The position numbers and the translations under genes were made by a program. A DNA stretch of 36,307 bases from Bradyrhizobium sp. (GTDB lineage Bacteria; Pseudomonadota; Alphaproteobacteria; Rhizobiales; Xanthobacteraceae): assembly GCF_030654605.1 (NCBI RefSeq), contig NZ_JAURXB010000011.1:1-36307 (forward strand), in the 5' to 3' direction. The notes beneath the pieces are model-generated. The model searched no databases. It worked only from the letters and a program-made list of their open reading frames with translations, and was not told where the DNA came from. Positions 12,921-35,454 of this stretch are shown in pieces. Position 1 is the first letter of the stretch. Every line of letters starts with the position of its first letter.

Positions 12921-13039
12921 ATAGCTGTGGGGGTACCAACTCCCGAAAATCTTCAACGAAATCAACGAATCAGACGCTTTGCCGGGTTTTGCGGCGTACG
13001 CTGTGTCTCATGGTTTGGACACAGTAGGAGTCTGTTCGA

Positions 13040-15335: not shown

Positions 15336-17507
15336 TCATGGCCGGCTTCCGGAGCCAGCGGGCGTGACGCATTCGGGCGAAGGCTGATCCGGCCCGACAA
15401 TGACGTCGATGTCTTCGGCCGAAAGAAAGCGCCGACGGAGCAAGGCCTCGGCGACGCCGGCGACCTGTGCGCGGTGGCGGCGGACGATGTCCACGGCGCG
15501 TGCCTGCAGCCGCCTCAACGCGTCATTGATCCGCCGGCGCGCCACAGGATCGCGACCTAATTCGCGGTGGGCGCCGTCCGCATCGGCGAGGTAGATCAGT
15601 TCGTCGTCTCCCAATCCGTATGAGCGGTTCATCGCCGCAAGCAAGCGCGTCGCGACCGACAGATCGGAACGCTCGCTGCCACCGGCTCCGATCGAGGCGG
15701 CGCCAAGCAGGACGATCTCCGCCGCGCGCCCCGAAAGCAGACCGACGACCTGCTGCTCGATCCAGTGCCTCGTGACCATGTCGGCGGACTTCTCGATACG
15801 AGTGACGCCGCCGGCACCGTCCCGTCCGCCCATCCGAACCGACTTCACCCGGAGCCCGCAGCAATATGCGGACAGGACGTGCCCTGCCTCGTGCACCGCG
15901 ATCCTGTAGAGCACCTCGGGCGGCAAGTCCGGCTCCGGCAGGGCCGCATCCTTCAGGTCGCCGATCGAAACGTCGCGCCCGGCCTGCCGCGCTTTCCTGC
16001 GCGCGCTGCGTACGGTCTCCATGATCTCCGCTGCCGTGCATCCATCGAGCGGTCCGATCGCGGTGCGCAACTCCTCGTCGGAGAGGCTGCCGCGCACGTG
16101 AAAGCGCAGGATGTTGAGGATGCCATCGGGGCCCGGCGCTGTCACCTCGATAGCTCGTTCGAGCCGCCCGGGCCTGAGGATCGCCGGGTCGACGGCGCCG
16201 ATCCGGTTCGTCGCACCGATCACCACGACGCCCTCACGCCTGCCACTGGTCGCGTCGTCCAACTGCAGCATGAAGTCCTCGATGACGGGCATCCACCAGT
16301 CCCGCCCCCTGGAGTCCAAGGACTCGCGGGACGGCAGCCCGTCGATCTCGTCGAGAAAGAGGATCGAGGGGGCGGCCGCCGCGGCACGCGCGAACAGTTC
16401 GCGCATGCTCTTGATCACACCATCCAGATGGCCGGAACTGGTCGCGAACAGCTCGCCGATGCTGCCGACCACCAGGGTGGCCTCGCATGCCCGCGCGATG
16501 CTCCTTGCGAGAACGCTTTTCCCCATGCCGGGGCCGGAGAAGAAGACGGCTCCGCGGTCCACCGCGCTCCAGCTGAGGACACCCGCACGATAGTCGCGCA
16601 TGTCGCGCGCCAGAGCGAGGCCCCAATCCCTGGCGGCGCCGTACTCGACCGCGGTGGCGAGATCCGGCACGTCGTCGATGCTTCCGACCCCGCCGCGGCC
16701 CTCCGCCGCTGCGGCGATACGCGCTGCGACTTCGCGCGCGCCGGCGTCCGGCCGCATCGCGGCCACGACGTCCTCGAGTTCTAGACGGACCAGGTGGGCG
16801 TCGTCGATGAGCGGCGGAATTTCGTCGTACAGAGCGCGGATGGTTCGACCGACCGCGGACCTGTCGAGCCTCACCTTGATCCGCTGGTCCGCGGCGGCGA
16901 CCAGGGTGGCCGGAAGCACTGCTTCGGGATTGACGGCGATGCCGACGACCGACCGTCCCCCCGCAAGGGCGGACGCCACCTCGTCGTTGCCCACGGACGC
17001 CTTGTGACGGAGGCGCTCGGAGCCATCGCGCGCGAAGCGCAGCCACTCTCTCCCGAACGGGCGCTGCTGGAAGAATTCCGTCACCGGCGCGATCCAATCG
17101 GCGGCCGGAACGGACACCACCAGAGCCAGCGTCGCCCGGCCGCGTAGCCCCTCTTCGATCGTGGGCGTGATCGCCGCGGCCATCGCTGCGGCGACGAGCG
17201 CCTTGCGAGGATCCCGAGGCACGTTGCCGCCGGCACCGGTAACCGGCGATGCGGCAGGATCGCCATCGTCGTCATCCTCGGTCGGTACATCGAGGTCGGC
17301 TTCGCCCTCGTGCTGTTCCTCAGGCGGCAGACTGCGCAGGGCCAGACGGGAGAAGCCGGTGGACCTGCGACCGGCTTCTTCGTCCCGCGGAGCCGATTGA
17401 TTTCCGGTCGTGGTGGCCGGCGCCGATTCCGGAGCCGATTCTTTGCGCAGGGACGTCTGGTTCGGCTCCGCTTCCGGCGTCGGGGGCTGATTGATTTCGT
17501 TCTTCAT
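15336..17507 (-). CDS. Soluble FtsH-like AAA+ ATPase with M41 metalloprotease domain
   Basis: The product has 723 residues. The first 100 or so are disordered and acidic, and residues about 100-310 form an unrecognised domain. The AAA+ module has Walker A GPGMGKS (325-331), Walker B ILFLDEIDG (382-390) and a second-region signature GATNRIGAVDPAILRPGRLE (431-450). A peptidase M41 domain follows, with the zinc site AVHEAGHVLSAY (HEAGH 539-543) and the third ligand Asp in SERSDLSVAT (near 615). These are the hallmarks of FtsH, but no membrane helices are seen, so it is likely a cytoplasmic ATP-driven protease. The ATG at 17507 is chosen over a TTG at 17561. It is probably downstream in one unit with the GIY-YIG gene. 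Its substrate is unknown. Confidence 0.85.
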   Translation of the reverse strand: MKNEINQPPTPEAEPNQTSLRKESAPESAPATTTGNQSAPRDEEAGRRSTGFSRLALRSLPPEEQHEGEADLDVPTEDDDDGDPAASPVTGAGGNVPRDPRKALVAAAMAAAITPTIEEGLRGRATLALVVSVPAADWIAPVTEFFQQRPFGREWLRFARDGSERLRHKASVGNDEVASALAGGRSVVGIAVNPEAVLPATLVAAADQRIKVRLDRSAVGRTIRALYDEIPPLIDDAHLVRLELEDVVAAMRPDAGAREVAARIAAAAEGRGGVGSIDDVPDLATAVEYGAARDWGLALARDMRDYRAGVLSWSAVDRGAVFFSGPGMGKSVLARSIARACEATLVVGSIGELFATSSGHLDGVIKSMRELFARAAAAAPSILFLDEIDGLPSRESLDSRGRDWWMPVIEDFMLQLDDATSGRREGVVVIGATNRIGAVDPAILRPGRLERAIEVTAPGPDGILNILRFHVRGSLSDEELRTAIGPLDGCTAAEIMETVRSARRKARQAGRDVSIGDLKDAALPEPDLPPEVLYRIAVHEAGHVLSAYCCGLRVKSVRMGGRDGAGGVTRIEKSADMVTRHWIEQQVVGLLSGRAAEIVLLGAASIGAGGSERSDLSVATRLLAAMNRSYGLGDDELIYLADADGAHRELGRDPVARRRINDALRRLQARAVDIVRRHRAQVAGVAEALLRRRFLSAEDIDVIVGPDQPSPECVTPAGSGSRP

Positions 17508-17576
17508 GTACCTGCGGTCGCGGCGAGAGGGAAACGAGCGGGGTGACGAGACGGTCGGCAACGGCGCCGGTGGGGA

Positions 17577-22980: not shown

Positions 22981-24326
22981 ATCACGAAGAGGGTTGTCGA
23001 GGCGGCTGATGCCCGAGAGAAGGACTACTTAATCTGGGACGACGAACTGCTGGCTTTGGACTCCGGGTCTTTAGTTCCGGCAAGCGCAGCTATGTCATCC
23101 AGTACCGAACGAGAGGTCGGTCTCGTCGATACACAATTGGGCTTCACGGAGCCTGGGCACCAGAAACGGCACGCCGAGAAGCAAGGGTGCAACTCGGTCG
23201 GGTCGCTGGGGGTGACGATCCCGTCGAAGATCGCCAGCTCGATCACAAGGCGATCACTGTGAAGGAGCTATGTACCCGCTATCTTGCCGATCTCCAGGCT
23301 GGCCTCCTGGGAAAGGGAGGGCGACCGAAGAAGGCCTCAACGATTGTCACCGACACTGATCGTATTGAGCGTCACATCATTCCGCTCATAGGGACCCGGC
23401 GAGTCAAGTATCTCACCAAGTCCGACATCAATAAGGTCCTCAAGGATATCATGGCTGGTAAGACGCGGGTTTCGGTCAAGACCAAGAAGCTGCGCGGAAA
23501 GGCCATCGTCCGAGGTGGCGCTGGAACGGCCACGCGTACCGTTGGTCTTCTCGGCGGCATTCTTAGCTACTCCGTCGAGGCTGGGATCATCGAGAGCAAC
23601 CCGGCCCATGGCATCCGCAAGCCGAAGGACAACGTGCGAAAGCGTCGGCTCTCTGAAGCGGAGTATCGGATACTGGGTCGGATGCTCAGCGACGCCGCCA
23701 AGCAGGAGAAATACAGCACGATTGTGGACATCATCCGCCAGCTTGCGCTGACCGGCTGCCGGCGTAGCGAGATGATTGCTTTGAAATGGACCGAGGCGGA
23801 TACGGAAGCGAGCTGCTTGCGGCTTGAGGACAGCAAGGAGGGCGAATCTATTCGTCCCATCGGATTGCCTGTCGACGAGTATCTCGAGCGGCGTCGCGCT
23901 GGCGTCATCGGCACGTACGTCTTCCCGGGGCAAGGTGGGGACAATGCGTTTGGCAGCTTCCCGAACCATTGGAAGCACATCTTTGAGGCTTCACCACTCT
24001 CCGACGTGACACCCCACGGCCTACGCCATAGCTTCGCGAGCATCGCCAACGATCTTGGTTTTACTGAGGTGACGATTGCGGCTTTGGTCGGCCATGCCAA
24101 AGGTTCGGTGACGAGCAGATACATCCATACGCTTGACACAGCGCTCATCATGGCCGCGGACACCATCTCGGGCTACATTCAAGGGCTCCTGGATGGCATC
24201 GAGTTCAAGCAAACCGCCTACGCATTCGACCGGGATTCACGCAAAGCCGTCCTGGCTCGTTTCCTGAAGAAAGCCTCAGGCAGCGATCAAAATGGAGCCG
24301 AGGAGGACCGCCGTTTAGCTGCATAG
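22981..24326 (+). pseudogene. DUF4102-type tyrosine recombinase with N-terminal frameshift
   Basis: The N-terminal arm begins ITKRVVEAADAREKDYLIWD DEL. A single missing base at about 23050 then moves the reading into another frame, which continues GFGLRVFSSGKRSYVIQYR, GRSRRYTIGLHGAW and on through the rest of the protein without a break. That arrangement (WDDELPGFGLRVF in intact relatives) is the standard DUF4102/integrase start. Within the second frame the first usable start is a GTG at 23187, giving 379 residues. The catalytic domain is complete: RRSEMIALKW, TPHGLRHSFASIANDLG, LVGHAKGSV and the nucleophile Tyr in SRYIHTLD. Without the arm-binding N-terminus activity is doubtful. It probably used the adjacent tRNA-Arg-like site. 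Confidence 0.75.
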
Positions 24327-24361
24327 TCCCTTTTCGATTTCGTGGAAGTACGGTTCTGTGG

Positions 24362-24378
24362 TCGGATTTTGCATAGAC
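24362..24378 (+). promoter_or_regulatory. TTTTGCATAG element 1 (before 24461)
   Basis: The sequence is TCGGATTTTGCATAGAC. It points at the small secreted protein gene and ends 84 bp before its ATG at 24461. It is one of eight copies with an identical 10-base core. Confidence 0.6.
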
Positions 24379-24460
24379 GACGCCATATCTGCATGGACAT
24401 GATTGGTGAAATCGGTCTCGTCGTGGCCGTAGCGCCGAAACACGAATGAGGATCCATGAG

Positions 24461-24769
24461 ATGCCCATCTCGATTTCAATGATTGTTCTGAGTTCGCAGT
24501 TGGTCATGCCGGTGGCTGACGGTGTGCCGAAGTTCGATATCGCGCGGAGTTGCAAGCTCGACCTTGCTGCCACCGCCGGTCTCTCCGTTGATCAGTCGCT
24601 AAAGAGCTGCATCAAAGACGAGCAGAGGGCAAAGCAACAACTCGCGGGTCAGTGGTCGAAATTCCCTGCCCCGAGCCGGACAAGCTGCGTCTCGCAAGAG
24701 AGCATTGGCGGGACGCCGAGTTACGTCAGTTTACAGACCTGCCTCCAAATCGGACAGTGGGCGCGATAG
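24461..24769 (+). CDS. Small secreted protein, 102 aa
   Basis: The product opens with a short signal peptide (MPISISMIVLSSQLVMPVAD G). The mature part contains FDIARSCKLDLAATAGLSVD, SLKSCIKDEQRAKQQLAGQW, RTSCVSQESIGGTPSYVSL and QTCLQIGQWAR, with four regularly spaced Cys suggesting two disulfides. Similar small periplasmic proteins are frequent in Bradyrhizobium, without a known function. The ATG at 24461 has AGGA in GAGGATCCATGAG as ribosome binding site; an ATG five codons upstream is possible but has none. It is preceded by a TTTTGCATAG element and stops four bases before the convergent DUF2721 gene. Confidence 0.65.
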   Translation: MPISISMIVLSSQLVMPVADGVPKFDIARSCKLDLAATAGLSVDQSLKSCIKDEQRAKQQLAGQWSKFPAPSRTSCVSQESIGGTPSYVSLQTCLQIGQWAR

Positions 24770-24773
24770 CCGC

Positions 24774-25196
24774 TCAGCCGCAGTGATCATATTCGCTCAG
24801 CGCAATCCGGACTTCACGGGCAAAATCTACGAGCGAGACGGTGAAAGCGCCGAGCGAAATCATGAAGAAGATGGCGACCCCGCGTTCGTGCTGTATCTGA
24901 AGGAGCGCCGTTACAAAAGCGACGATTACGAGAAGCGTCACCGAGATACTTGCGATCACTGCCCAAAAGATCGCCCGGTTCATCATCGCTGCGCGCTGCT
25001 TCAGACGCGGCAGATCAGCCTTCAGCCGGCATCGGACCATATCGTCATCGGCGATTCCGTTCAGGACGACCGTCCGGTCAACGATCCGGTTCAGGCGGGA
25101 GATCAGGATGGCGATGAAGGCCCCCAGTGCGCCCAGCAGAAAGGCGGGGGCCGCTGACTGCGAGATGACTTGAGATAGCTGAGTTTCGGATGGCAT
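24774..25196 (-). CDS. DUF2721 family membrane protein, 140 aa
   Basis: The product has three hydrophobic segments: residues 15-33 (APAFLLGALGAFIAILISRL), about 74-98 (AIFWAVIASISVTLLVIVAF) and 107-125 (GVAIFFMISLGAFTVSLVDF). The typical DUF2721 features are SRLNRIVDRTVVL after the first helix and LPRLKQRAAMMNRAIFWAV before the second. It is an inner-membrane protein of unknown function. The ATG at 25196 has only a weak ribosome binding site. A TTTTGCATAG element lies 98 bp upstream. The gene is divergent from the DUF992 gene, so the region 25197-25487 holds two outward-facing promoters. Confidence 0.75.
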   Translation of the reverse strand: MPSETQLSQVISQSAAPAFLLGALGAFIAILISRLNRIVDRTVVLNGIADDDMVRCRLKADLPRLKQRAAMMNRAIFWAVIASISVTLLVIVAFVTALLQIQHERGVAIFFMISLGAFTVSLVDFAREVRIALSEYDHCG

Positions 25197-25292
25197 CTGT
25201 CAACATTGAGCGGGCTTCCGGTTCACGATCAGGCCGCGTCGTTTAGGCCGCCCGACTTGTTCGCCGTCACGTAACGTACCATCCGATGGATC

Positions 25293-25308
25293 GACTATGC
25301 AAAATCGG
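25293..25308 (-). promoter_or_regulatory. TTTTGCATAG element 2 (before DUF2721)
   Basis: On the minus strand the sequence is CCGATTTTGCATAGTC. It points at the DUF2721 gene, with 98 bp between the core and its ATG. It and element 3 face away from each other in the same intergenic region. Confidence 0.65.
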
Positions 25309-25372
25309 CGTCGTCTCCATTGAGCCGTCGATTCATTGGGACAGATAATCAGCGTTGCGCGTCGATCACGGT

Positions 25373-25388
25373 CCGATTTTGCATAGGC
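25373..25388 (+). promoter_or_regulatory. TTTTGCATAG element 3 (before DUF992)
   Basis: The sequence is CCGATTTTGCATAGGC on the plus strand, ending its core 101 bp before the DUF992 ATG at 25488. Confidence 0.65.
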
Positions 25389-25487
25389 AGATGACTACGC
25401 CGGTTCGTATAGCTACTCCCGCGCATCAGCCCGAGTGGGCTGATCTATAACAGCGAGCGGTGTGAGCCTCGCAGGGAGTGATCGATC

Positions 25488-25979
25488 ATGCCCAGCTACC
25501 ATTTCGTTCGGGTAATGAGCCTCGCCGCGACGATACTTCTGGCTCCCGCGTATGCGTCGGCTCAGCAGCCGCCTCCGGGCGTCCAGGCCGGCATGCTGAC
25601 CTGTAACCTTGCTCCGAGCATCGGTCTGATTGTCGCCGAGAGCCAGCGGATGAGTTGCAGATATGCGCCCAACGGGCCGTATCCCCCCCAGAACTATAAC
25701 GGAGTGATGAATACCGTCGGGCTCGAACTCGGGATTACCGCGGGCGGGGTAATGGCGTGGGGCGTGTTTGCTCCGACTCAGGGGACGCCGATCGGGGCGC
25801 TGGCGGGCGAGTATTTCGGCGCCAGCGGCGACATCGCGGTCGGAGTAGGGGTCGGAGCCAACGTTTTGTTTGGCGGCTCCAATCGCACGATTGCCCTGCA
25901 ACCATTATCGGTCGAGGGGCAGGCCGGTTTGAACGTGTCGCTCGGCGTGTCGGGTCTGACGCTGGCTTTGGCGCCCTGA
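25488..25979 (+). CDS. DUF992 family secreted protein, 163 aa
   Basis: The signal peptide covers about residues 1-26 (SLAATILLAPAYASAQ). The mature protein has the DUF992 pattern: GVQAGMLTCNLAPSIGLIVA, a second Cys in RMSCRYAPNG, then GGVMAWGVFAPTQ, GALAGEYFGASGDIAVGVGV and IALQPLSVEGQAGLNVSLGV. The two Cys are conserved and may form a disulfide. The family is restricted mainly to alphaproteobacteria and its function is unknown. The gene stops five bases before the TAXI gene, so the two are very likely co-transcribed from the promoter marked by element 3. Confidence 0.85.
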   Translation: MPSYHFVRVMSLAATILLAPAYASAQQPPPGVQAGMLTCNLAPSIGLIVAESQRMSCRYAPNGPYPPQNYNGVMNTVGLELGITAGGVMAWGVFAPTQGTPIGALAGEYFGASGDIAVGVGVGANVLFGGSNRTIALQPLSVEGQAGLNVSLGVSGLTLALAP

Positions 25980-25984
25980 ACCCG

Positions 25985-27331
25985 ATGGCCAGTCCAGCGA
26001 TAACCCTGTGGCCGCGATGGCTGAGGCTAACGATAGTTGGAGTCGCTACCGCAGCAATCATAAGCGGCGGCTGGCTGTCCTATCGCTACTTCGCCAAACC
26101 AGTTGTTTTGACCGTGGCGGTCGGCTCGGCTGACGGAGAGGCCTTGTCGTTGATCTCCGCAGTGGCGGCGCGCTTGACGACGTCGAATGCCCACGTCCGG
26201 TTGAAGGTAGTAGACACCAATACATCGGCCAAGGCATCGGAACTGCTGGCGGCGCACAAGGCCGATCTCGCCGTCGTTCGCGGCGATACTGGTGGCTTGG
26301 GAGATGCCAGAAGCGTGTTGCTCCTGACCCATGGCGTGGTTCTGCTCATGACGCCTTCGACGGTGAGCGGCGATAGTCTTGGCGACCTTCGCAACACAAA
26401 GATCGGGGTCATTGGAGGGCCCATCAACCGGCCGGCGGTCGAAGCCCTGAAGCAAGTGTACCAGTTTGACCGCGCCAAGATCGAATTCCAGGACGTCGCC
26501 ATCGCGGACGCGACGGCGGCGCTGTCGTCGGGACAGGTTCATGCGTTGCTTGCGGTCGTTCCGCTGACCGAGAAATACCTGGCAAAGGTCAGGCAACTCT
26601 TTCAGAAGGCCGGTGCCAAGGGGTCGGGGCCAAAGCTCATTGAAATCGAATCGGCCGGCGCCGTCGCCAATATCGCGCGATATTACGAGAGCTACGACAT
26701 CCCGAAGGGGACCTTGCGGGGAGCGCCGCCGGCTCCATCCGACGATCTGACGTCACTGCGCGTGTCATACTTTCTTGTCGCCAACAAATCGGTAAGTGCC
26801 GAGGATATTACGGACCTGACGCAATCCCTGGTCGACGTCCGACGGGACCTGTTGTCGCAATACCCGATATTGGCACAGGCCGCTGCGCCGAGTACCGACG
26901 CCAATGCACTGATTCCGATCCATCCGGGCGCAGCGACCTACTACAACGGAAACCAGCAGAGCTTCCTCGATAAATACGACGACAAGCTCTATTACGGGTC
27001 GCTTCTGCTGGGATCGCTGATCTCGATCGTCATTGCTGCATGGCGCTTTGCCGGCTCCGGCAATGGATCGCAAAGCATGGTCGAACCGCTCTACGAGTTG
27101 GGCAATGAGATCAAGGGCGCCAAAAGCGAGGCGGAACTGGACAAAGTCGAAAAACGCATCGATGACATGCTGAAGGCCGAGCTCGCCAGGAACGCGAGCG
27201 GCGAGGGCGCCGACAGTAACGATATGGCCGCGCTCGGTCTGGCAGCCCACAGGCTTCAACACCTGATGAACCATCGCCGGACCCTGCTCCGCAGTGCATC
27301 AGCCGCCCGGGAGCCCGTGGCCGCCCAATGA
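25985..27331 (+). CDS. TAXI-family TRAP solute receptor, membrane-anchored
   Basis: The 448-residue product has an N-terminal membrane anchor (residues 13-32) and a periplasmic TAXI domain: VLTVAVGSADGEALSLISAV, KADLAVVRGDTGGLGDARSV, SGDSLGDLRNTKIGVIGGP and RYYESYDIPKGTLRGAPPAP. A second membrane helix lies near residues 335-356 (YYGSLLLGSLISIVIAAWRF). A cytoplasmic tail with helical, charged sequence (SEAELDKVEKRIDDMLKAEL) follows. Classical TAXI receptors are free periplasmic proteins working with a fused TRAP permease; here both ends are anchored and no permease gene is in the window. That suggests a sensory or scaffold role, which is an inference. It is five bases after the DUF992 gene and convergent with the LssY_C gene. 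Confidence 0.85.
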   Translation: MASPAITLWPRWLRLTIVGVATAAIISGGWLSYRYFAKPVVLTVAVGSADGEALSLISAVAARLTTSNAHVRLKVVDTNTSAKASELLAAHKADLAVVRGDTGGLGDARSVLLLTHGVVLLMTPSTVSGDSLGDLRNTKIGVIGGPINRPAVEALKQVYQFDRAKIEFQDVAIADATAALSSGQVHALLAVVPLTEKYLAKVRQLFQKAGAKGSGPKLIEIESAGAVANIARYYESYDIPKGTLRGAPPAPSDDLTSLRVSYFLVANKSVSAEDITDLTQSLVDVRRDLLSQYPILAQAAAPSTDANALIPIHPGAATYYNGNQQSFLDKYDDKLYYGSLLLGSLISIVIAAWRFAGSGNGSQSMVEPLYELGNEIKGAKSEAELDKVEKRIDDMLKAELARNASGEGADSNDMAALGLAAHRLQHLMNHRRTLLRSASAAREPVAAQ

Positions 27332-27363
27332 TACCTTGCCAGTAAAACGCCGACAGAAAGCTG

Positions 27364-28179
27364 TCAATCGGCGGAAGCGCGCCAGGAAAACACCGCATCC
27401 TTTATTTGAATCAATGCTGGCGCCGGCTGTATCCCTGCGATTTTGTCAGATTTCTCACCGCGTCGAACAAGCCGCGCCAGCCAGATCTCGCCATCCGAGT
27501 AATAGGGGTCGCCCTCGCCATTTCGCCCGTTCAGGGTGGGGCCTATCCCCCTTGCTTGATAAATGCGCGTCACTGTCTGCGCCTGGTTCAGGTCGCTAAT
27601 AAGCCGGTCGCGTTCTTCATCCACATTCGGGGCGATCTTGTGCGTAACCTGGCCGGTGTCGCGGCTAAGGGTGACCCCGCTGTCGAAAGTGGCCGATCCA
27701 AGCCAGACGGGAGCCGCCTCCGCTCCGTTTGAAAGGACCAGCCATAGCCGGACGTGCTGCCGCCGGTCGGCGCTCCTGCCATGCGGTTTTTCAAAGGCCA
27801 GATCTTCGCGGCGTCCGTCGAAGAAGAGCGGGCTGACCGGCGCGTCCTTGTAAGGCCTATCGAGAAGGACGCTGCCGACGATTTCCATGCTCGTCCGCAA
27901 CGTAATCGGATCTGCAGGATACCACCCTGCCACATGAAACGCAGAGACGACGTCTTCGCGGGTTCCGATTAGGCCGACGTTGATGGGATCGCCCGCGATG
28001 CCTTGCGCTGTCGCGGTCAGCATAGTCCGCTTTGAGAGACCGGGTTCGTTCTCGATGCGTGACCATGTAGCCGGCAAGATCAGGTAGCTGACGGCGAGGT
28101 AACAAAGGATTACCGCCAAAAGAACCGCGGTGTACCGATGTCGAAATCCCATACCAATAGTCACTGGTCTACTCCGCAT
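27364..28179 (-). CDS. LssY C-terminal domain protein
   Basis: One N-terminal membrane helix (YTAVLLAVILCYLAVSYLIL) is followed by a periplasmic LssY_C domain with PINVGLIGTREDVVSAFHVA, GWYPADPITLRTSMEIVGS, DLAFEKPHGRSADRRQHVRL and VTHKIAPNVDEERDRLISDL. The domain was named after a Legionella secretion-linked protein; its biochemical role is unknown. Starts at 28182 (GTG), 28179 (ATG) and 28152 (ATG) are possible, none with a good ribosome binding site. It lies about 55 bp after the SphA-like gene in the same direction, so both are probably transcribed from the element upstream of that gene. Confidence 0.8.
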   Translation of the reverse strand: MRSRPVTIGMGFRHRYTAVLLAVILCYLAVSYLILPATWSRIENEPGLSKRTMLTATAQGIAGDPINVGLIGTREDVVSAFHVAGWYPADPITLRTSMEIVGSVLLDRPYKDAPVSPLFFDGRREDLAFEKPHGRSADRRQHVRLWLVLSNGAEAAPVWLGSATFDSGVTLSRDTGQVTHKIAPNVDEERDRLISDLNQAQTVTRIYQARGIGPTLNGRNGEGDPYYSDGEIWLARLVRRGEKSDKIAGIQPAPALIQIKDAVFSWRASAD

Positions 28180-28235
28180 CACAGCGGGCTTGCCGCAAGC
28201 GGGAGATCACCCGATTCCTGCTTGGGCCGATGCCC

Positions 28236-29312
28236 TTACTTGTTCACCATCCGCCGCGTCGGCGTCACGGTGCTGGTCGGCGCCATCGGCGAGATCGAGA
28301 ACGTCACCCAGGTATTCCATCCCGAAGGCCGGTTCTCGGCAGCGAATTCGCCATATCCTTTCAAATTGAGATATCCCTGCATATCTCCAACCGGAAACAG
28401 AAACCCGATTTGCGGTCCAATTCCGGCAACGCGGGACCGGAATCCGCCAAGGATGGGGTTTTGACCGAAGTCGTCGGTGATCTGCTGATAGGCGTATCCG
28501 ACGAAGCCGACGAAAACCTGTTTTGAGAGGAACTGGGAGACGCCCCAGTCAAGGTGGAAATCGATGCCGTTCTGATATTGCGTATCCTGGTTCTTGAAGT
28601 TGTAGGTAAAGCCCGCGACGGCCGAAAACTCTTGCCCTGCCGCCGGATTGAAAAAGGTGTATCCGCCGCCGCCATCGATTGCGCCGTGACCGATACCGAG
28701 ATTGGAGAGGCGATTGGGATCGTAGGCGCCAACCGGGATGTCTCCGGTCACGTAGGTCATGAAATTATGCACGCCGGCGTTCCACTTCAGCGTGGCCTGC
28801 GGATACAGGTCTCCAACCGACGTAAGCGAATCCGCGATGCTTCCCGTCCGTGTCGTCACAAGGGGGCCGACCGCTGTCGTGAGTGTGCCGTCGATGCCGG
28901 TGCTGGCTCGACCGAACAGGCCGGTAACACCTATGGCCAGTTGTCCACCCAGCACGGGTGTAGCGAACGTGTATGTCGGATTAAGCAGCACGAGGTCGGC
29001 CTGAGCATTAAGACTTGCATTCAGGCCGACGTTGACGTTCGCGGGAATCCTGCCGATCTGGATCTGCTTTGCGGCCGCAACACCTCCTGATGCTCCGACC
29101 GAGGTATGATAGTAGACTTCGGCCCAAGACCATCCCGGCACCTGAGGGGTCGCAGCCAGACTGCCGAACCGCCCAGGTAGCCAGTATGACACACCGCTTT
29201 CGTCCGCATAGCCCGCGCCAGACAACGAGCCAAATAACAACATGGCCAGGCCGGCGGAGTGCGCGAGTCGATGGGTAGAGGCCTGTTTGGGGAGATAGCT
29301 CGTCATCTGCAT
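28236..29312 (-). CDS. SphA / Phenol_MetA_deg family outer-membrane protein
   Basis: The 358-residue product has a signal peptide (about residues 1-34, ending LFGSLSGAGYA). The rest consists of alternating amphipathic strands typical of an outer-membrane beta barrel, such as LKWNAGVHNFMTYVTGDIPV, FSAVAGFTYNFKNQDTQYQN and VFVGFVGYAYQQITDDFG. The pattern PVGAYDPNRLSNLGIGHGAI and the GGYTFFNP motif match the Phenol_MetA_deg / SphA group, linked elsewhere with uptake of hydrophobic or aromatic compounds. Transport of such compounds is an inference. The ATG at 29312 has GAGAG upstream; another ATG two codons later is possible. A TTTTGCATAG element ends 59 bp upstream, and the LssY_C gene follows. 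Confidence 0.82.
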   Translation of the reverse strand: MQMTSYLPKQASTHRLAHSAGLAMLLFGSLSGAGYADESGVSYWLPGRFGSLAATPQVPGWSWAEVYYHTSVGASGGVAAAKQIQIGRIPANVNVGLNASLNAQADLVLLNPTYTFATPVLGGQLAIGVTGLFGRASTGIDGTLTTAVGPLVTTRTGSIADSLTSVGDLYPQATLKWNAGVHNFMTYVTGDIPVGAYDPNRLSNLGIGHGAIDGGGGYTFFNPAAGQEFSAVAGFTYNFKNQDTQYQNGIDFHLDWGVSQFLSKQVFVGFVGYAYQQITDDFGQNPILGGFRSRVAGIGPQIGFLFPVGDMQGYLNLKGYGEFAAENRPSGWNTWVTFSISPMAPTSTVTPTRRMVNK

Positions 29313-29369
29313 GTCACTCTCAGTATCGCCGTGCCCAAGGTCGCAATTGAGCATCCGAATGCTGCCAAT

Positions 29370-29385
29370 GACTATGCAAAATCGG
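29370..29385 (-). promoter_or_regulatory. TTTTGCATAG element 4 (before the SphA-like gene)
   Basis: The minus strand reads CCGATTTTGCATAGTC, identical to element 2 over 16 bases. The core ends 59 bp before the ATG at 29312. Confidence 0.65.
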
Positions 29386-29472
29386 TCGCCGATCCACCTC
29401 GCTCCCTGCCTGTGGCTCTAATGTCACGCTCAGGTTGTCGCGGCTCAGGCACAAGATGCGCCGCGCGAATTC

Positions 29473-29922
29473 TCATGCATGAAGGACGGCGTCTTTGTGA
29501 TCACCGGCCCGGACAAAATGTGCAGTTGCACACGAAGCGCGTTGCAGAGTTTGAGAGGGACTTTCGCCAAACGCTCGTCGATACTCAACCGAGAAGCGTC
29601 CCAATTCCAGGAAACCAAAGGCGGTAGCAATTTCTGTCACAGTCGAGAGGCCGCTGTCTGTGTCCATCAGCGCGCGTCTGGCCTTTGCCAATCGCAGCGA
29701 TCGAAGATACCGGCAGGGCGGAAGGCCACGGATGCTGTGAAACGCCTTGCGAAGCGTGCGCTCGCTGACGGATAGCGCGGTACAAAGAGCTGAGATATGC
29801 AGAGGCTCGTCGACTTCGGCGAGCGCCAAAACCTCAGCCCGTTCAACGAGGTCACGGCAGGGGTTAACGGGCAGGGCGCCGGGAGTTTGCGTCCCCGTAT
29901 TGACGGAGAGATAAATTGTCAT
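29473..29922 (-). CDS. Short AraC-family transcriptional regulator, 149 aa
   Basis: From MTIYLSVNTGTQTPGALPVN the product has only 149 residues. They contain two helix-turn-helix motifs of the AraC DNA-binding domain: LHISALCTALSVSERTLRKA and VTEIATAFGFLELGRFSVEY, followed by the end helix RRAFGESPSQTL. The usual N-terminal effector or dimerisation domain (about 150 residues) is absent. The frame is open further upstream but reads like non-coding sequence with many Cys. Similar short AraC proteins occur in Bradyrhizobium, so this may be a complete gene rather than a truncation. It is 160 bp beyond the SphA-like promoter and could control the neighbouring envelope genes. Confidence 0.75.
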   Translation of the reverse strand: MTIYLSVNTGTQTPGALPVNPCRDLVERAEVLALAEVDEPLHISALCTALSVSERTLRKAFHSIRGLPPCRYLRSLRLAKARRALMDTDSGLSTVTEIATAFGFLELGRFSVEYRRAFGESPSQTLQRASCATAHFVRAGDHKDAVLHA

Positions 29923-30407
29923 CGTGGCCCCGCATATCGCCAGAACACGGCAGACGTTCTGCCCGGCGCCCAAACACCACAGCTCGATATCCCGGTATAT
30001 TGCCCTTGAGGGCAACGTGTGGTCGCAGCGGAGATACAACGTGGAATTGCAGCACGGCATTTTCAGAACGGTATGCACTTTGGCTTTCCTGAGCCGAAGC
30101 CTTACAGCGCCAATTTTCGTGCCTCAGTTGGGCGGGGTCGACGGGCAGGGGAGATATGCCAGGGCCTGCCATGTTTTGATGGCGGCCGGCGCGGCATTGT
30201 CGCCAGCCCTGGTACGACGGATTTGCCAGACATTCGTCGAGCGTGCTGGATGCCGAGGCTTGGCATTTAGATAGCTGGTGAAGCCACAGTTGGAATACCC
30301 GGATAGTCATCGCCTTGGAGGCAGAATGGGAATCAGGTCGAAACCTCCGCATATACGCTTGCCGGGCGTTGCATAGTGGCTGGTTTGGCGAGCTTGCTCG
30401 CAATCAC
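29923..30407. other. Gap between the AraC gene and the response regulator gene
   Basis: About 485 bp with no credible gene. Open readings on both strands are short or irregular. A partial element, CGTTGCATAGTG at 30367-30378, resembles the TTTTGCATAG core but lacks two of the T residues and has no gene in front of it, so it is not counted. The upstream signals of the AraC gene should be in the left part. Confidence 0.45.
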
Positions 30408-31055
30408 CTATTGGGGATTTCCGGCATTCGTCGTGGCCGACGGCGCCAACAGTCCGATCCTCTCGGCGACGGAGACGGCCTCCGCAAACGTCTGAACCTG
30501 CAGCTTTTCCATCACCATATGTCGATGCGCCTTGATGGTTCGCTCGGAGGTGCCGAGCTCAAAGGCGATCTGCTTATTCATTTTGCCACGAACCATCAGC
30601 GCAAAGACCTCGCTTTCCCGGGGAGTCAAGGCCGCAATCAGGGATCTGAGCGAATTGAGCTGGTCCTGTTGCTGCTTCGTTACGGCGAAATTGGCGAGCG
30701 CGCGACCTATTGTGTCGAGCAAGGTCTCTCTGGCCACGGGTTTCAGCAGAAAATCTTCGGCGCCGGCCTTGATCGCCCGTACGCTGGTGGGAACGTCACC
30801 CCGGCCGGACATGAAGACGATCGGCCAACGCATTGACAGCTTCGCGAGTTCTTCCTGGAGCTGTAACCCGTTAACCGAGGGCATGTTCACGTCGAGCAGG
30901 ATGCAACCCGGTTTGGCATTCTCAATCGAATGCAGAAAGCAACTCGCGGAATCATAGTCCGCCACCGCATAGCCCGAGAGTTCCAGCACGCGCGAGATCG
31001 CACCCCGAAACGATGCGTCGTCGTCAACAATATGAATTACAGGCTCTGCTGTCAT
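30408..31055 (-). CDS. FixJ-type response regulator with LuxR-family DNA-binding domain
   Basis: The 215-residue product has a receiver domain with the acidic pocket (IHIVDDDASFRG, residues 8-19), the phosphorylated Asp55 in CILLDVNMPS and the Lys in DFLLKPVARE near 105. A FixJ-type LuxR C-terminal HTH follows: ALTPRESEVFALMVRGKMNK, QIAFELGTSERTIKAHRHMV. It resembles the FixJ/TmoT/TodT class, which pairs with PAS-bearing sensor kinases. No kinase gene is in the window, so its signal is unknown. The start at 31055 (MTAEPVIHIV) is preferred over an upstream in-frame start because it is the normal receiver start. It follows the HlyD gene by about 195 bp in the same direction. Confidence 0.88.
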   Translation of the reverse strand: MTAEPVIHIVDDDASFRGAISRVLELSGYAVADYDSASCFLHSIENAKPGCILLDVNMPSVNGLQLQEELAKLSMRWPIVFMSGRGDVPTSVRAIKAGAEDFLLKPVARETLLDTIGRALANFAVTKQQQDQLNSLRSLIAALTPRESEVFALMVRGKMNKQIAFELGTSERTIKAHRHMVMEKLQVQTFAEAVSVAERIGLLAPSATTNAGNPQ

Positions 31056-31250
31056 TCCGGCACTAATCTTCCACTCTACGCAGGGCCTCATTAGGCAACA
31101 TCAGGCTAGGGCAGCCTGAAGTCCTTCAAGCGTTTGGTGCCGGGAGATTAGCCGGGGCGCGCCGAAGCGGTCAACGCGAAGGGCGATCCGCTGCGGGGGG
31201 CCAATATGCAGTTTGTGCCAAGCGTCCTTACCTCAACATCTTTATTGCGG

Positions 31251-32360
31251 TCAGAGGTAAGCCGTATACGAGCTGACCCAGACCAGAATGGACGCAAGCA
31301 GGCCAATAACGCCTGCATTTGCGGCGAATGCGGTGGCGCTGCCGGACATGCCCAGGCGGAGCGAGTCGCGGCTCATTTCCTCCGGAATGGAAATCACCGC
31401 CGGGAAAGCCGACGCGCCACCGATCGCATTGGTCCGCGCCAGCGTTCCGGATGCAGCAATCTGTCCCTGACCTATCCCTTTTGGAATGTCGATGATTTTG
31501 GCGTGATAGACTCGGCCTGGAACATTATCGAACACGATATTGACGGGGACGCCGGCCTTGACGGTCTGAAAGCCGTTCTGCGAAAACATCCCAACAATCG
31601 TAATCTCATTTTCGACGATAAACGACATAACTGATCGCAATTGGGAGGCGCGATCGCCCACGGTCAGGGCCACTGCCGTTGCGTAGCCGTTGGCAGGGGC
31701 GCGGATTGTGGTTTGCGCCAACTCCCAGACGGCGTTCTCCAGTTGCGCCTGCATTTGTGCAACGGTCGTGTTCACTCCGCCGATCTCGGAATTCAGGGCC
31801 AGTTTGGCACTTTGCTGGGTTGCCTTGGCGACATTGAGTTGCGCCCCAACCGTCTCGAACTGCACCTGGGTATCCTGCTCCTTGAACTCGGTGTTGGATC
31901 CGCTGGCGTACAGCTTCTGGATATCGTCCAGGCGTTTCGCGTTGTATTTGTACTGGGCCTCGAGCCCGGCAACGTTCGCGGTCGCTTGATCGTAATTTGC
32001 TTTCAATATTTGTGTCTGCTGTTTCGCTGCGGCGAGCGACGCCTGCAGTTGTGCCACTTTGTACTGGAATGGCGCCGGATCGAGTTGAAACAGGATATCA
32101 CCCGACTTCACGGGGACGTTCGGCTTTACCGGGATGGCGATCACCTGACCGGTTACGTTCGGCGTCACTTCGATCACCCGGCCAGCGACGGTGACCCTTC
32201 CTGAGGGCGTCAAATTATTGAACAGCGCGAGGAATGTCGCGAGAATGAACGCGCCGACAAGTATCGAAATTGTCCCGGACAGCCAACTCCAGCGCACGAG
32301 CTTGAACCTCGAGAATACGGCCCACATCGCAGCGACATAAAGGCACAGGATAATGACCAT
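31251..32360 (-). CDS. HlyD-family membrane fusion protein, YibH-like
   Basis: The 369-residue product starts with two closely spaced hydrophobic segments (MVIILCLYVAAMWAVFSRF and LSGTISILVGAFILATFLAL). The periplasmic adaptor part has GRVIEVTPNVTGQVIAIPV and VKSGDILFQLDPAPF (first lipoyl half), a coiled-coil hairpin of about residues 110-215 rich in Ala, Gln and Leu, and TTIRAPANGYATAV (second lipoyl half). A C-terminal membrane segment ends it (AGVIGLLASILVWVSSYTAY). Such proteins bridge an inner-membrane pump to an outer-membrane channel; no partner pump gene is nearby. The ATG at 32360 is chosen because upstream in-frame sequence lacks coding character and includes the promoter element. 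Confidence 0.85.
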   Translation of the reverse strand: MVIILCLYVAAMWAVFSRFKLVRWSWLSGTISILVGAFILATFLALFNNLTPSGRVTVAGRVIEVTPNVTGQVIAIPVKPNVPVKSGDILFQLDPAPFQYKVAQLQASLAAAKQQTQILKANYDQATANVAGLEAQYKYNAKRLDDIQKLYASGSNTEFKEQDTQVQFETVGAQLNVAKATQQSAKLALNSEIGGVNTTVAQMQAQLENAVWELAQTTIRAPANGYATAVALTVGDRASQLRSVMSFIVENEITIVGMFSQNGFQTVKAGVPVNIVFDNVPGRVYHAKIIDIPKGIGQGQIAASGTLARTNAIGGASAFPAVISIPEEMSRDSLRLGMSGSATAFAANAGVIGLLASILVWVSSYTAYL

Positions 32361-32419
32361 GGCGGAATCCCATCGTTCGGGTACGAGATCGCCATTAGCC
32401 GGCAATCGATCAATGCGCG

Positions 32420-32433
32420 CTATGCAAAATCGG
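32420..32433 (-). promoter_or_regulatory. TTTTGCATAG element 5 (before the HlyD-type gene)
   Basis: The minus strand reads CCGATTTTGCATAG. The core ends 59 bp before the ATG at 32360. It forms a back-to-back pair with element 6 within 65 bp, serving divergent genes. Confidence 0.65.
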
Positions 32434-32468
32434 CGCGATGAAAATCTTCGTACCGAACTGTCGCCGGT

Positions 32469-32484
32469 CGGTTTTTGCATAGTC
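32469..32484 (+). promoter_or_regulatory. TTTTGCATAG element 6 (before DUF2092)
   Basis: The sequence is CGGTTTTTGCATAGTC, with 80 bp between the core and the ATG at 32563. It shares GGTCGGTTTTTGCATAGTC-like sequence with element 8. Confidence 0.65.
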
Positions 32485-32562
32485 GATGCAGCGTGACTTC
32501 TCCATGGTGGCCGGCGAGCGAGACCATTCGCCGGAATCATCGTGATTAGCAAGGAGAGCGTT

Positions 32563-33363
32563 ATGAGGCAGGCGTCGATATGCAAAGCCGGGGCGCTTAG
32601 CCTTGGCGCGGCCGGGCTGGCGCTGGCCCTGGTTGTTTCGAGCATACCACATGCACATGCTCAGGAAGATGGCGCCAGTAAAATTCTCAAGGCCATGTCG
32701 GACTATGTGGCGAGCCAGAAGACCATTTCGGTTACCTACGACTCCGACATCGAAGTCGTCACCTCCACCTTGCAGAAGATTCAGTTCACCAGTTCGGGAC
32801 AGGTGCAACTGAGCCGTCCGGACAAGCTCCGCGCCACGCGCACGGGCGGCTATCGGGACGTCGAAGTCGTGTTCGATGGCAAGCTGGTCACCGTGAACGA
32901 CAAGGATACGAAGAACTACGCCCAGATCGATGCCGGAGGGACCGCCGATCAACTGATCGACGTGCTGCGCGAAAAGAACGGCGTCGTGGCCCCCGGTGCA
33001 GACCTCCTGCTGCCGAACGTGTTCGATGTGATGATGGCGGATGTTGTCGAAGGCGCCGTGATCGGAAAGGGCGTCATCGACGGCGTCGAATGCGACCATT
33101 TGGCATTCCGCAACGTCGAGACCGATTGGCAGATCTGGATCGAGTCCGGCGCCAGGCCCATCCCGCGTAAATATGTGATCACCAGCAAGGGCGTCGGCGA
33201 AGCGCCGCAATACACCCTGCGCATCAAAGAATGGAAGACAGATCTGCCGGCGGACGCGTTTGCCTTCAGGCCAGAACAGTCGGCCAAGAAGCTGGCGCTG
33301 GGTGAACTCGGCGACATCGACGAAGTGCCGTACGGCGTCGCCAACACAGGAGCCAAGAAATGA
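32563..33363 (+). CDS. DUF2092 family exported protein, 266 aa
   Basis: The signal peptide is residues 1-34 (GALSLGAAGLALALVVSS, ending HAHAQ). The mature protein has the DUF2092 pattern: ILKAMSDYVASQKTISVTYD, LQKIQFTSSGQVQLSRPDKL, GYRDVEVVFDGKLVTVNDKD and a later GVECDHLAFRNVETDWQIWI with PIPRKYVITSK. This fold resembles LolA-like lipoprotein carriers, so a role in moving lipids or lipoproteins in the periplasm is possible but not shown. The ATG at 32563 has AAGGAG six bases upstream; a GTG seven codons earlier is less likely. The stop overlaps the next gene's ATG (ATGA), so the two are co-translated. Confidence 0.85.
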   Translation: MRQASICKAGALSLGAAGLALALVVSSIPHAHAQEDGASKILKAMSDYVASQKTISVTYDSDIEVVTSTLQKIQFTSSGQVQLSRPDKLRATRTGGYRDVEVVFDGKLVTVNDKDTKNYAQIDAGGTADQLIDVLREKNGVVAPGADLLLPNVFDVMMADVVEGAVIGKGVIDGVECDHLAFRNVETDWQIWIESGARPIPRKYVITSKGVGEAPQYTLRIKEWKTDLPADAFAFRPEQSAKKLALGELGDIDEVPYGVANTGAKK

Positions 33364-33683
33364 TCCGCATATCGAAAATTCTCGTTCGTCTCTCGACTGT
33401 CGCGATCGTCGGCGCGGCGGTGCTGTTGTGGAACGGGCAGTCACCGCTGGATTCGAGCGCAGCCCTGGTCTCATCGGCCGAGGCGAGAATCGGGCGACCG
33501 CTTACGCCGATGAGCTATGCCGGCGTGGCCCGCCGAACGACGCGCCGCGCCGTTGCGGTGGGCGCGGCGGCGGCGGGAGCTGCCTATGTGGCGCCGGTCG
33601 TGGTGGCGCCTGTGCCGGTTGTTCCGGGGCGTTGCGTGCAGGCCGTCGATCCCTACGGGCGCATTTACACGCGCTGCTATTAG
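33360..33683 (+). CDS. Small exported protein with TPMSYAGVARRT cassette, 107 aa
   Basis: The product has an N-terminal signal or anchor (ILVRLSTVAIVGAAVLLW), a short spacer, and then IGRPLTPMSYAGVARRT followed by a basic and then Ala/Val/Pro-rich segment (RRAVAVGAAAAGAAYVAPVV) and an end with two Cys (RCVQAVDPYGRIYTRCY). The central cassette returns in the 229-residue product at 35545. It is translationally coupled to the DUF2092 gene by a 4-bp overlap. The function is unknown; the Ala/Val stretch after the basic residues could be a membrane-inserting helix. Confidence 0.75.
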   Translation: MIRISKILVRLSTVAIVGAAVLLWNGQSPLDSSAALVSSAEARIGRPLTPMSYAGVARRTTRRAVAVGAAAAGAAYVAPVVVAPVPVVPGRCVQAVDPYGRIYTRCY

Positions 33684-33764
33684 GGCTGGCGCGGGGCGGC
33701 GCGTGTAGTCAGCCGCGATCGACCAATATGTGCGAAGGGTGAACATACAGGCGAGACAGGATTG

Positions 33765-33780
33765 CCCGTTTTGCATAGCC
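33765..33780 (+). promoter_or_regulatory. TTTTGCATAG element 7 (before DUF1254)
   Basis: The sequence is CCCGTTTTGCATAGCC. The core ends 83 bp before the ATG at 33862. Confidence 0.6.
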
Positions 33781-33861
33781 AGCCGTCGCACAGAGCGCCA
33801 AACATTTACCCGTTAACAAACTCGCTTGACCGCAAGCTGCGAACCGAAAGGAATTTTTCTG

Positions 33862-35301
33862 ATGTTTACAAAACGCGATCTGCTTCGTACTGCAGCGCTG
33901 GCTGCGATAACTGTCACGGCAGCGAAAGCTATCCCGGCAAACGCACAGGCCAAAGCGGAATGGCCTGACATCCGCGAGGCCAAGGCGATCGCCGAGGAAG
34001 GCTTTATCTACGGGCTGCCGATCGTAATGAACTACGCGGTCATGTATGAATATTCGGTCGACAAGAACTCGGGACAATTCAAGGCGCCGTTCAATCAGAT
34101 CCATAACGAGGCGAGGGTCTTTACATACAAAGACACGGCCATCATAACCCCCAACAGCGACACGCCGTACTCGCTCTTATGGACCGATCTGCGTGCCGAA
34201 CCGATTGTGCTTTCAGTGCCGGCTGTCGAGAAGACGCGCTATTATTCGGTAATGCTGTGCGACGGTAACACGTTTAACTACGGCTATCTCGGTAGCCGCG
34301 CGACCGGCGGCGAGGCCGGTGACTATATGGTGGTCGGTCCCGATTGGAAGGGCGCCACCCCACCCGGTATCAAGAAGGTCTTTCAGTCCTCGACGCAGTT
34401 TTCGATCGTTGCATACCGTACGCAACTCTTCAATGCTGCAGACATGCCGAATGTCGAGAAGGTCCAAGCGGGCTACAAGGTGCAACCCCTATCCGCCTAT
34501 CTCAAGCAACCCGCACCGGCCGCGGTGCCGGCCATCGACTTTCCCAAAGCCAATGCGGAGTTGGTGAAGAAGAACTTCTTCGAGTACCTCGACTTTGCCT
34601 TGCAGTTCGCCCCGGCCGGTCCGGAGGAAACGCAGATCCGCGCCAAGCTCGCCCGCATTGGCGTCGGGGCCGGCAAAACCTTCGACTTCAAGGATCTTCC
34701 ACTGACGCACAAGATTGAAATCGGGCTGGGAATGAGAGACGGCGAAGAGAAGGTCGTAAAGTATCTTGCCAGCGGACAGAAAGAAGTAAATGGGTGGAAA
34801 ATCGGATCGCTGTTCGGAGACCGCCAATTCTACAGCGGCGACTGGCTGAAGCGCGCTGCTGCCGCCAAGGGCGGCATCTATGGCAACGACGCGGTTGAGG
34901 CCGTCTACCCGTTGACGAAGACGCTCGCCGATGGCGAGGTCCTGGATGGTTCCAAGCACAATTACACCCTTACTTTCCCTGCAGGACAATTGCCGCCGGT
35001 GAACGCGTTCTGGTCGGTGACGATGTACGACGGCAAGACACAGTTGCTGATTGAAAATCCGATCAACCGCTACCTGATCAACTCGCCGATGCTGCCGGGC
35101 ATGAAGAAGAATGCCGATGGGTCGCTGACGCTCTACATCCAGAATAAATCGCCGGACGCCGACAAGCAGGCCAATTGGCTCCCGGCGCCGAATGGAGAAA
35201 TCTATCTCGTCATGCGTCTGTACTGGCCGAGGCCGGAAGCGCCGTCGGTCCTGCCGGTGGGCCAGGGGACGTGGCAGCCGCCTGGTATCAAGCGGGCTTA
35301 A
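33862..35301 (+). CDS. DUF1254/DUF1214 domain exported protein, 479 aa
   Basis: The N-terminus (MFTKRDLLRTAALAAITVTA) is a signal peptide with a KR pair that might be a weak Tat motif. The DUF1254 domain follows (AEEGFIYGLPIVMNYAVMYE, ITPNSDTPYSLLWTDLRAEP, GYLGSRATGGEAGDYMVVGP). The C-terminal DUF1214 domain has PPVNAFWSVTMYDGKTQLLI, ENPINRYLINSPML and YIQNKSPDADKQANWLPAP. Length is normal for these two-domain proteins, whose biochemical role is unknown. The ATG at 33862 has GAAAGG upstream. It is preceded by element 7 and followed by a strong hairpin, so it is likely a single-gene transcript. Confidence 0.88.
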   Translation: MFTKRDLLRTAALAAITVTAAKAIPANAQAKAEWPDIREAKAIAEEGFIYGLPIVMNYAVMYEYSVDKNSGQFKAPFNQIHNEARVFTYKDTAIITPNSDTPYSLLWTDLRAEPIVLSVPAVEKTRYYSVMLCDGNTFNYGYLGSRATGGEAGDYMVVGPDWKGATPPGIKKVFQSSTQFSIVAYRTQLFNAADMPNVEKVQAGYKVQPLSAYLKQPAPAAVPAIDFPKANAELVKKNFFEYLDFALQFAPAGPEETQIRAKLARIGVGAGKTFDFKDLPLTHKIEIGLGMRDGEEKVVKYLASGQKEVNGWKIGSLFGDRQFYSGDWLKRAAAAKGGIYGNDAVEAVYPLTKTLADGEVLDGSKHNYTLTFPAGQLPPVNAFWSVTMYDGKTQLLIENPINRYLINSPMLPGMKKNADGSLTLYIQNKSPDADKQANWLPAPNGEIYLVMRLYWPRPEAPSVLPVGQGTWQPPGIKRA

Positions 35302-35348
35302 TAGCAGGCGCAGATCTCTGGCGCCTGAGTCCACGCCCCGGTTCAAGC

Positions 35349-35392
35349 AAAGCAGACATTCGCATGCCGCGCAGCATGCGAGTGTCTGCTTT
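35349..35392 (+). terminator. 19-bp hairpin terminator after the DUF1254 gene
   Basis: AAAGCAGACATTCGCATGC and GCATGCGAGTGTCTGCTTT pair over 19 bases with one G-U, around the loop CGCGCA. The 3' arm ends in TTT. It lies 47 bp after the stop at 35301 and before the next promoter element. Confidence 0.75.
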
Positions 35393-35439
35393 CGTGCGTC
35401 CGGTAGTGAGGCGGCTCGCTTTATGTCTTCCGGTCGGTT

Positions 35440-35454
35440 GGTTTTTGCATAGTC
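35440..35454 (+). promoter_or_regulatory. TTTTGCATAG element 8 (before 35545)
   Basis: The sequence is GGTTTTTGCATAGTC, with 92 bp between the core and the ATG at 35545. Upstream it carries GGTCGGTT as in element 6. Confidence 0.6.

Follow-up and report, generated by a model that had tools for sequence, protein, structure and literature searches.

A contig of 36,307 nucleotides from Bradyrhizobium sp. (NZ_JAURXB010000011.1, RefSeq assembly GCF_030654605.1), which is one complete contig of a 5.66-Mb genome and is referred to here as the window, carries a gene cluster in which the 10-mer TTTTGCATAG recurs upstream of gene after gene. We consider it likely, with considerable confidence, that these copies form the core of candidate class II operators for an AraC-type protein encoded within the cluster (29473–29922), that each operator would replace the -35 box of one promoter, and that a single regulator would serve eight transcription units. 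This proposal was reached by comparing the sequence of the window with those of related genomes.

The window contains eight exact copies of TTTTGCATAG, five on the plus strand and three on the minus strand (Table 1). Each is oriented toward a start codon, and the distance from core to start codon is 59–101 bp in all eight cases (for the MetA gene, the distance was computed with the ATG at 29312, read from the sequence, as the start). The copies at 25295 and 25377, and those at 32420 and 32473, form back-to-back pairs. The original prediction, made from the window alone, had described eight exact directional copies and two such pairs, and both descriptions were borne out. When one mismatch was permitted, a scan of the window found no additional copies. 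The mean number of copies in dinucleotide-shuffled versions of the window was 0.02, and none of 100 shuffles reached eight. In the whole 5.66-Mb genome, we found the same eight copies and no others, all of them confined to one 11-kb stretch, and a reversed control string occurred four times. Because the genomic total of eight compares with four for the control, it is the clustering of the copies, and not their total, that is striking.

To define the site, we aligned 168 distinct copies from the window genome and its relatives, 85 of which are non-redundant. The conserved stretch extends from 7 bases before the core to 2 bases after it and reads KGKCSGWTTTTGCATAGNS across the 168 copies; it is about 19 bp long, and the flanks beyond it differ. 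The flank consensus proposed originally (yCGnTTTTGCATAGnC) fits three of the eight window copies exactly and the other five with one mismatch, and KGKCSGWTTTTGCATAGNS is the better description. The site is asymmetric and contains two boxes, CSGW and GCATAG, whose centres are 9.5–10 bases apart, or about one helical turn. Both boxes are constant, and the four bases between them vary in relatives (ATTT, TTCT, AACT, AATC, and others). A search for CSGW-N4-GCATAG yielded 93 variant sites (91 distinct), compared with 9 reversed-control matches in approximately 1 Mb.

A -10-like hexamer is enriched at one place, 30–35 bases after the first T of the site. Among the non-redundant sites, A or T is present at +31 in 68 of 85 and T is present at +35 in 53 of 85; the two occur together in 46 of 85, compared with a mean of 7.3 and a maximum of 18 at other offsets, and in 0 of 2000 shuffles was this count attained. 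The same -10 signal is present in 78 non-redundant variant sites. If +35 corresponds to position -7 of the promoter, the first base of the core falls at -42, and the centres of the two boxes and of the whole site fall at about -45, -35, and -40, respectively. A forward site that overlaps the -35 region at a fixed distance from the -10 element would have the geometry of a class II activator site, the position of its centre being deduced from the -10 signal.

Strict orientation, an invariant core, and a fixed -10 distance would also be expected if the element were a -35 region read by an alternative sigma factor without an activator. However, a Pfam search found no sigma factor among the 18 proteins of the window (the response regulator described below matches a region-4-like model in its helix-turn-helix [HTH] part only), conservation reaches to about -49 and comprises two boxes with a variable middle, and the -10 element resembles that of ordinary sigma-70 promoters; we regard this explanation as highly improbable. 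The sequence TTTTGCA resembles the -12 box of sigma-54 promoters. Under a sigma-54 reading, a GG should stand 12 bases upstream of the GC; the alignment of the sites shows no such conserved GG, and this reading was rejected. A phage-type integrase gene (23187–24326) adjoins the cluster, as might be seen if the copies were a mobile or repeated sequence, and chance was also considered. Neither is credible, because the likeness ends at about 19 bp and gives way to differing flanks, orientation and the distances to gene and -10 element are fixed in many genomes, and the shuffle expectation is only 0.02.

The eight elements head eight putative transcription units, which together comprise all 11 structural genes of the approximately 12-kb cluster. 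Units were assigned from the gaps between genes, and co-transcription within a unit is predicted on that basis. The araC-like gene and the FixJ-like gene (30408–31055) have no element. The downstream genes had all been described as encoding exported or membrane proteins. Every head gene does encode a hydrophobic stretch, near the N terminus or internal (weakest in MetA, DUF1254, and DUF992), and export itself is a prediction from protein families and hydropathy.

In other genomes of the genus, the cluster occurs in different gene orders and orientations, and the element is kept at the orthologous genes. We counted upstream sites in the loci of class A1R (21, the window included), in which an AraC ortholog and the response regulator are both encoded. 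Starts were estimated from tblastn, identical coding stretches were counted once, genes at the edges of stretches were excluded, and counts upstream of araC were restricted to short araC genes (21 in the A1R loci, and 34 for the palindrome considered below), since for full-length relatives the start had been placed at the DNA-binding domain, within a longer gene. A site was present upstream of the HlyD gene in 19 of 19 cases (69–73 bp from the start), the gene for the 229-residue protein in 16 of 16, the DUF2092 gene in 5 of 5, the small protein gene in 17 of 19, the MetA gene in 13 of 18, and the DUF992 gene in 7 of 10. For the second genes of units, the counts were 1 of 19 (TAXI), 0 of 8 (LssY_C), and 0 of 5 (107-residue protein). 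The element preceded neither araC (0/21) nor the response-regulator gene (0/21).

HlyD homologs were also counted in stretches in which no gene for either regulator was found, and only 1 of 20 had a site. The exception, locus L073, continues stretch L072 of the same genome, in which an AraC gene lies about 19 kb away. The AraC ortholog was absent from 13 of the 14 genomes of regulator-less HlyD loci that were searched, and L081, an additional HlyD copy whose genome has an AraC ortholog elsewhere, had no site. Because the presence of sites tracks the regulator across rearranged clusters, this would be a clean natural case in which to study regulon–operator co-evolution. One further HlyD homolog (65% identity) is encoded with a protein of the 229-residue type at L091. 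The title of that record names Mycobacterium sp. KBS0706, which may be an error, or the contig may be of foreign origin.

We surveyed 265 genomes of the genus for an AraC ortholog (at least 54% identity) and for the site pattern CSGNTTTTGCATAGNS. Sites were present in 30 of the 31 genomes with an ortholog, compared with 39 of the 234 genomes without one (Fisher's test, 2.4e-19). Of the 192 sites in total, 123 were in the 31 ortholog genomes and 69 in the other 234, and the reversed control gave 16 matches in the 265 genomes. Conserved use, fixed -10 distance, and co-occurrence with AraC all support the earlier suggestion that the element is a directional promoter-type element or activator site, at the head of a local regulon of predicted envelope or exported proteins.

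The 149-residue AraC protein contains an AraC-type HTH domain, with 75.1 bits for HTH_18 (cut-off 33.6) and 30.7 bits for HTH_AraC (cut-off 26.6). An AlphaFold2 model (mean predicted local distance difference test score 82) has seven helices (residues 21–35, 43–50, 54–65, 69–87, 95–101, 107–118, and 122–141) that form two HTH units. The closest sequence match in the PDB is the solved structure 3mn2, a probable AraC family regulator (residues 35–129, E 4.9e-14). The length of 149 residues is counted from a start that several orthologs conserve, and it leaves the protein no N-terminal sensor domain. At other loci, sites are accompanied by full-length AraC relatives, and the DNA-binding domains of three of these are only 47–48% identical to the window protein. 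Nevertheless, the recognition-helix residues (S/A)ERTLR and ELGRF(S/A)..YR are common to the relatives that consist of the DNA-binding domain only and to the full-length relatives, whereas other residues are present in a more distant AraC group from the same loci. The full-length-AraC loci were mostly picked for having sites near an AraC relative, so that spacer counts by class are biased; the test on ortholog-less genomes, given next, was unselected.

Several observations weigh against the assignment of the element to the AraC protein. In the window, both the +31 and the +35 positions fit in four of the eight copies, one fits in three, and neither fits in one; most of the -10 hexamers are weak (CATGGT, GCTAAT, AACATT), and -10 scoring puts the hexamer of the minus-strand copy at 25295 at another place. 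In the A1R loci, an upstream site was found in only 10 of 19 cases for DUF2721 and in only 10 of 34 for DUF1254. Genome G202 has an AraC ortholog but no match to CSGNTTTTGCATAGNS, and one variant site was present in the stretch read. The AraC and response-regulator genes occur together in most such clusters, and co-occurrence there therefore cannot separate the two proteins. Finally, 63 of the 69 sites in ortholog-less genomes were examined against the AraC relatives among the matches listed: 38 of the 63 have A or T at -1, and for only 19 of these 38 is a listed AraC relative encoded no more than 15 kb away. The corresponding count for sites with G or C at -1 is 1 of 25. Separately, CGGCTTTTGCATAGTC with C at -1 recurs in at least 14 genomes of the genus (for example, G035:C283:3193 and G017:C1:3857223) and is perhaps not an operator but a coding position under conservation.

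The sites that have no listed AraC relative nearby, together with the full-length relatives that have similar recognition helices and accompany sites in other genomes, would fit the view that the true regulator is another AraC-family protein encoded elsewhere, the local one being a minor or competing binder. However, the genome yielded one match to the AraC protein at E ≤ 1e-20, which was the protein itself, among the best 14 of 20 first-look candidates (six were unscored). We consider such a regulator very unlikely.

The original prediction had named two candidate regulators, the AraC protein and the FixJ-type response regulator. Comparative evidence favours the former over the latter. The response regulator shares clusters with the element, and its gene, as is the case for araC, is not preceded by an element; its ortholog (at least 65% identity) was found in 23 genomes, all of which have sites and an AraC ortholog. 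In all 22 loci that have both genes, the two are on one strand with the response-regulator gene upstream of araC (about 142–1307 bp between the aligned parts), and its score against the NCBIfam FixJ model (180.9 bits, below the cut-off of 255) makes it FixJ-like, not FixJ. In contrast, many loci have sites and AraC relatives but yielded no FixJ-type gene, and for this reason we favour AraC as the binder. Among 29 loci, consisting of the short-AraC loci without the ortholog and the full-length-AraC loci, 26 had no response-regulator match at E ≤ 1e-8, and the other three had matches at 38–46% identity only. In the 17 loci with full-length AraC relatives only, a FixJ-like gene was found once (45% identity). 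Likewise, locus L161 has an 82%-identical AraC protein and sites with no response regulator nearby, the ortholog being elsewhere in that genome. In this genome (G178, loci L161 and L191), about 1.6 Mb separates the araC ortholog from the response-regulator ortholog, and one or more elements adjoin each of the two, and the regulator would therefore have to act in trans there. Dimers of the NarL/FixJ type usually use inverted repeats, unlike the asymmetric element with its two boxes one turn apart. It is therefore unlikely that the response regulator, rather than AraC, binds the element.

For the response regulator, a more plausible candidate site is a distinct palindrome that precedes araC. An 18-bp near-palindrome, TTGCCCYNAAGGRCAATA, was found with up to three mismatches before 28 of the 34 short araC genes, and no copy with up to two mismatches was found in the 17 loci with full-length AraC relatives only. 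The window copy, TTGCCCTCAAGGGCAATA, is the sole perfect copy in its genome. At L189 and L191, which have no araC next door, the palindrome lies within about 60 bp past the aligned end of the response-regulator gene. It is also present before araC at L179, L180, and L182, where no response regulator was found, and at unrelated places in other genomes. The palindrome may be the binding site of the response regulator, and its presence without that protein and at unrelated places means that it remains a lead.

We propose that a single DNA-binding domain of the AraC protein would dock its two HTH units at the boxes (about -45 and -35), and that the bound protein would contact region 4 of sigma-70 in the manner of RamA at a class II promoter. 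In this way, AraC could switch on all eight units of the cluster. Because the AraC protein lacks a sensor domain, its output would depend on how much of it is present, and this amount might in turn be set through the FixJ-type response regulator encoded just upstream. A wider scheme is possible, and we offer it only tentatively: the cluster may be a two-tier portable cassette, in which the FixJ-type regulator would bind TTGCCCYNAAGGRCAATA before araC, the sensor-less AraC protein would fire identical class II promoters, and the operator would be the entry ticket for envelope genes that join or leave. In Bradyrhizobium, paralogous AraC proteins and CSGW-N4-GCATAG operators with varied middle bases might then constitute insulated local regulons. 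If our assignment is correct, eleven genes, many of which encode domains of unknown function (DUF992, DUF1254, DUF2092, DUF2721, and LssY_C among them), would gain a regulator, a promoter architecture, and a signal path that can be tested. An operator grammar that can be reused would also become available for an AraC subfamily of Bradyrhizobium.

The features of the cluster are listed in Table 1. The integrase gene mentioned above lies directly before the cluster and may mark an island edge; a 43-residue piece of the integrase (84% identity) is encoded about 3 kb from the cluster in locus L070. At 12844–14989 in the window, a tRNA-Met gene is followed by a gene for a 649-residue DUF6538 protein; the arrangement is reminiscent of integration events at tRNA genes. 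A 741-residue FtsH-like protein with AAA and peptidase M41 domains is encoded outside the cluster (15336–17561, minus strand).

Table 1. Elements, genes, and predicted units of the cluster (window coordinates)
Feature	Coordinates	Strand	Remarks
Element 1	24360..24378, core 24367-24376	+	before gene for small predicted secreted protein
Small predicted secreted protein, 107 residues	24446..24769	+	one-gene unit 1; no Pfam family
Element 2	25293..25311, core 25295-25304	-	
DUF2721 predicted membrane protein	24774..25196	-	unit 2; PF11026
Element 3	25370..25388, core 25377-25386	+	
DUF992 predicted exported protein	25488..25979	+	unit 3, first gene; PF06186
TAXI/NMT1-like solute-binding protein, 448 residues from ATG 25985	25985..27331	+	likely unit 3, 5 bp past DUF992
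Element 4	29370..29388, core 29372-29381	-	
MetA-pathway-type predicted outer-membrane protein	28236..29312	-	unit 4, first gene; PF13557; start read from sequence
LssY_C protein	27364..28182	-	likely unit 4, 53 bp downstream of MetA on same strand; PF14067
AraC-type protein, DNA-binding domain only, 149 residues	29473..29922	-	predicted regulator; PF12833
Palindrome-like TTGCCCTCAAGGGCAATA	29998..30015	-	upstream of araC; possible response-regulator site
FixJ/NarL-type response regulator	30408..31055	-	
Element 5	32418..32436, core 32420-32429	-	
HlyD/EmrA-like membrane-fusion protein	31251..32360	-	unit 5
Element 6	32466..32484, core 32473-32482	+	
DUF2092 predicted periplasmic protein	32563..33363	+	unit 6, first gene; PF09865
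Cassette-type protein, 107 residues	33360..33683	+	likely unit 6; overlaps DUF2092
Element 7	33762..33780, core 33769-33778	+	
DUF1254/DUF1214 predicted exported protein	33862..35301	+	unit 7; PF06863, PF06742
Element 8	35436..35454, core 35443-35452	+	
Predicted exported cassette protein, 229 residues	35545..36234	+	unit 8; no Pfam match

In the literature, screened largely by title, we found no earlier description of the element or of this AraC subfamily. Among the matches listed for TTTTGCATAG, no title bears on this family. Work on GCATAG and AraC includes Salmonella MarA-type regulons, and none of it concerns this subfamily by title; no match combined two of Bradyrhizobium, DUF992, and DUF2092. 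For AraC and DUF1254 in Bradyrhizobium, one source includes an NnrR table that lists a gene of each kind, on different lines.

A close parallel in geometry is with MarA, SoxS, Rob, and RamA of the Enterobacteriaceae, although the targets here are confined to one cluster, unlike those of MarA-type regulons, which are scattered. In the excerpts of the two sources concerned, the contacts of RamA with a class II promoter are placed around -35 and -45 (PMC8811837), and class II marboxes have the forward orientation and overlap the -35 element (PMC12052159). To the extent of those excerpts, the systems share a sensor-less AraC domain, an asymmetric forward site centred near -40, and boxes near -35 and -45. 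They differ in DNA sequence: the marbox GCANNWWNTGNNAAA occurs exactly in 0 of 168 sites, and it has 3–7 mismatches when anchored on the GCA of the element. Unanchored, with up to two mismatches, it is found on the forward strand of 8 of 168 sites versus 5 when shuffled, and on the reverse strand of 56 of 168 versus 4; the reverse-strand likeness may merely reflect a shared GCAAAA. The AraC protein also scores below the NCBIfam cut-offs for RamA (26.3 of 180 bits) and SoxS (24.6 of 174 bits).

Helices 3 and 6 of XylS read two short boxes, according to an excerpt of PMC5481539, and on that account XylS and its Pm promoter resemble the present system in having two short boxes. XylS differs in having two tandem half-sites, TGCA-N6-GGNTA, and induction by benzoate. 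A reading of the element as XylS half-sites was rejected: GGNTA stands 6 bp after TGCA in 0 of 168 sites, and in 6 with up to one mismatch. The NCBIfam models closest to the DNA-binding domain are AndR (E 1.6e-27) and EutR (E 3.9e-22), but the scores are 97 of 350 and 78.8 of 319 (cut-offs), and the N-terminal part of each model is missing, the match beginning at positions 217 and 237, respectively. The proposed mechanism is classical, that of class II activators of the AraC family, and the form that it takes here is unusually clean and self-contained.

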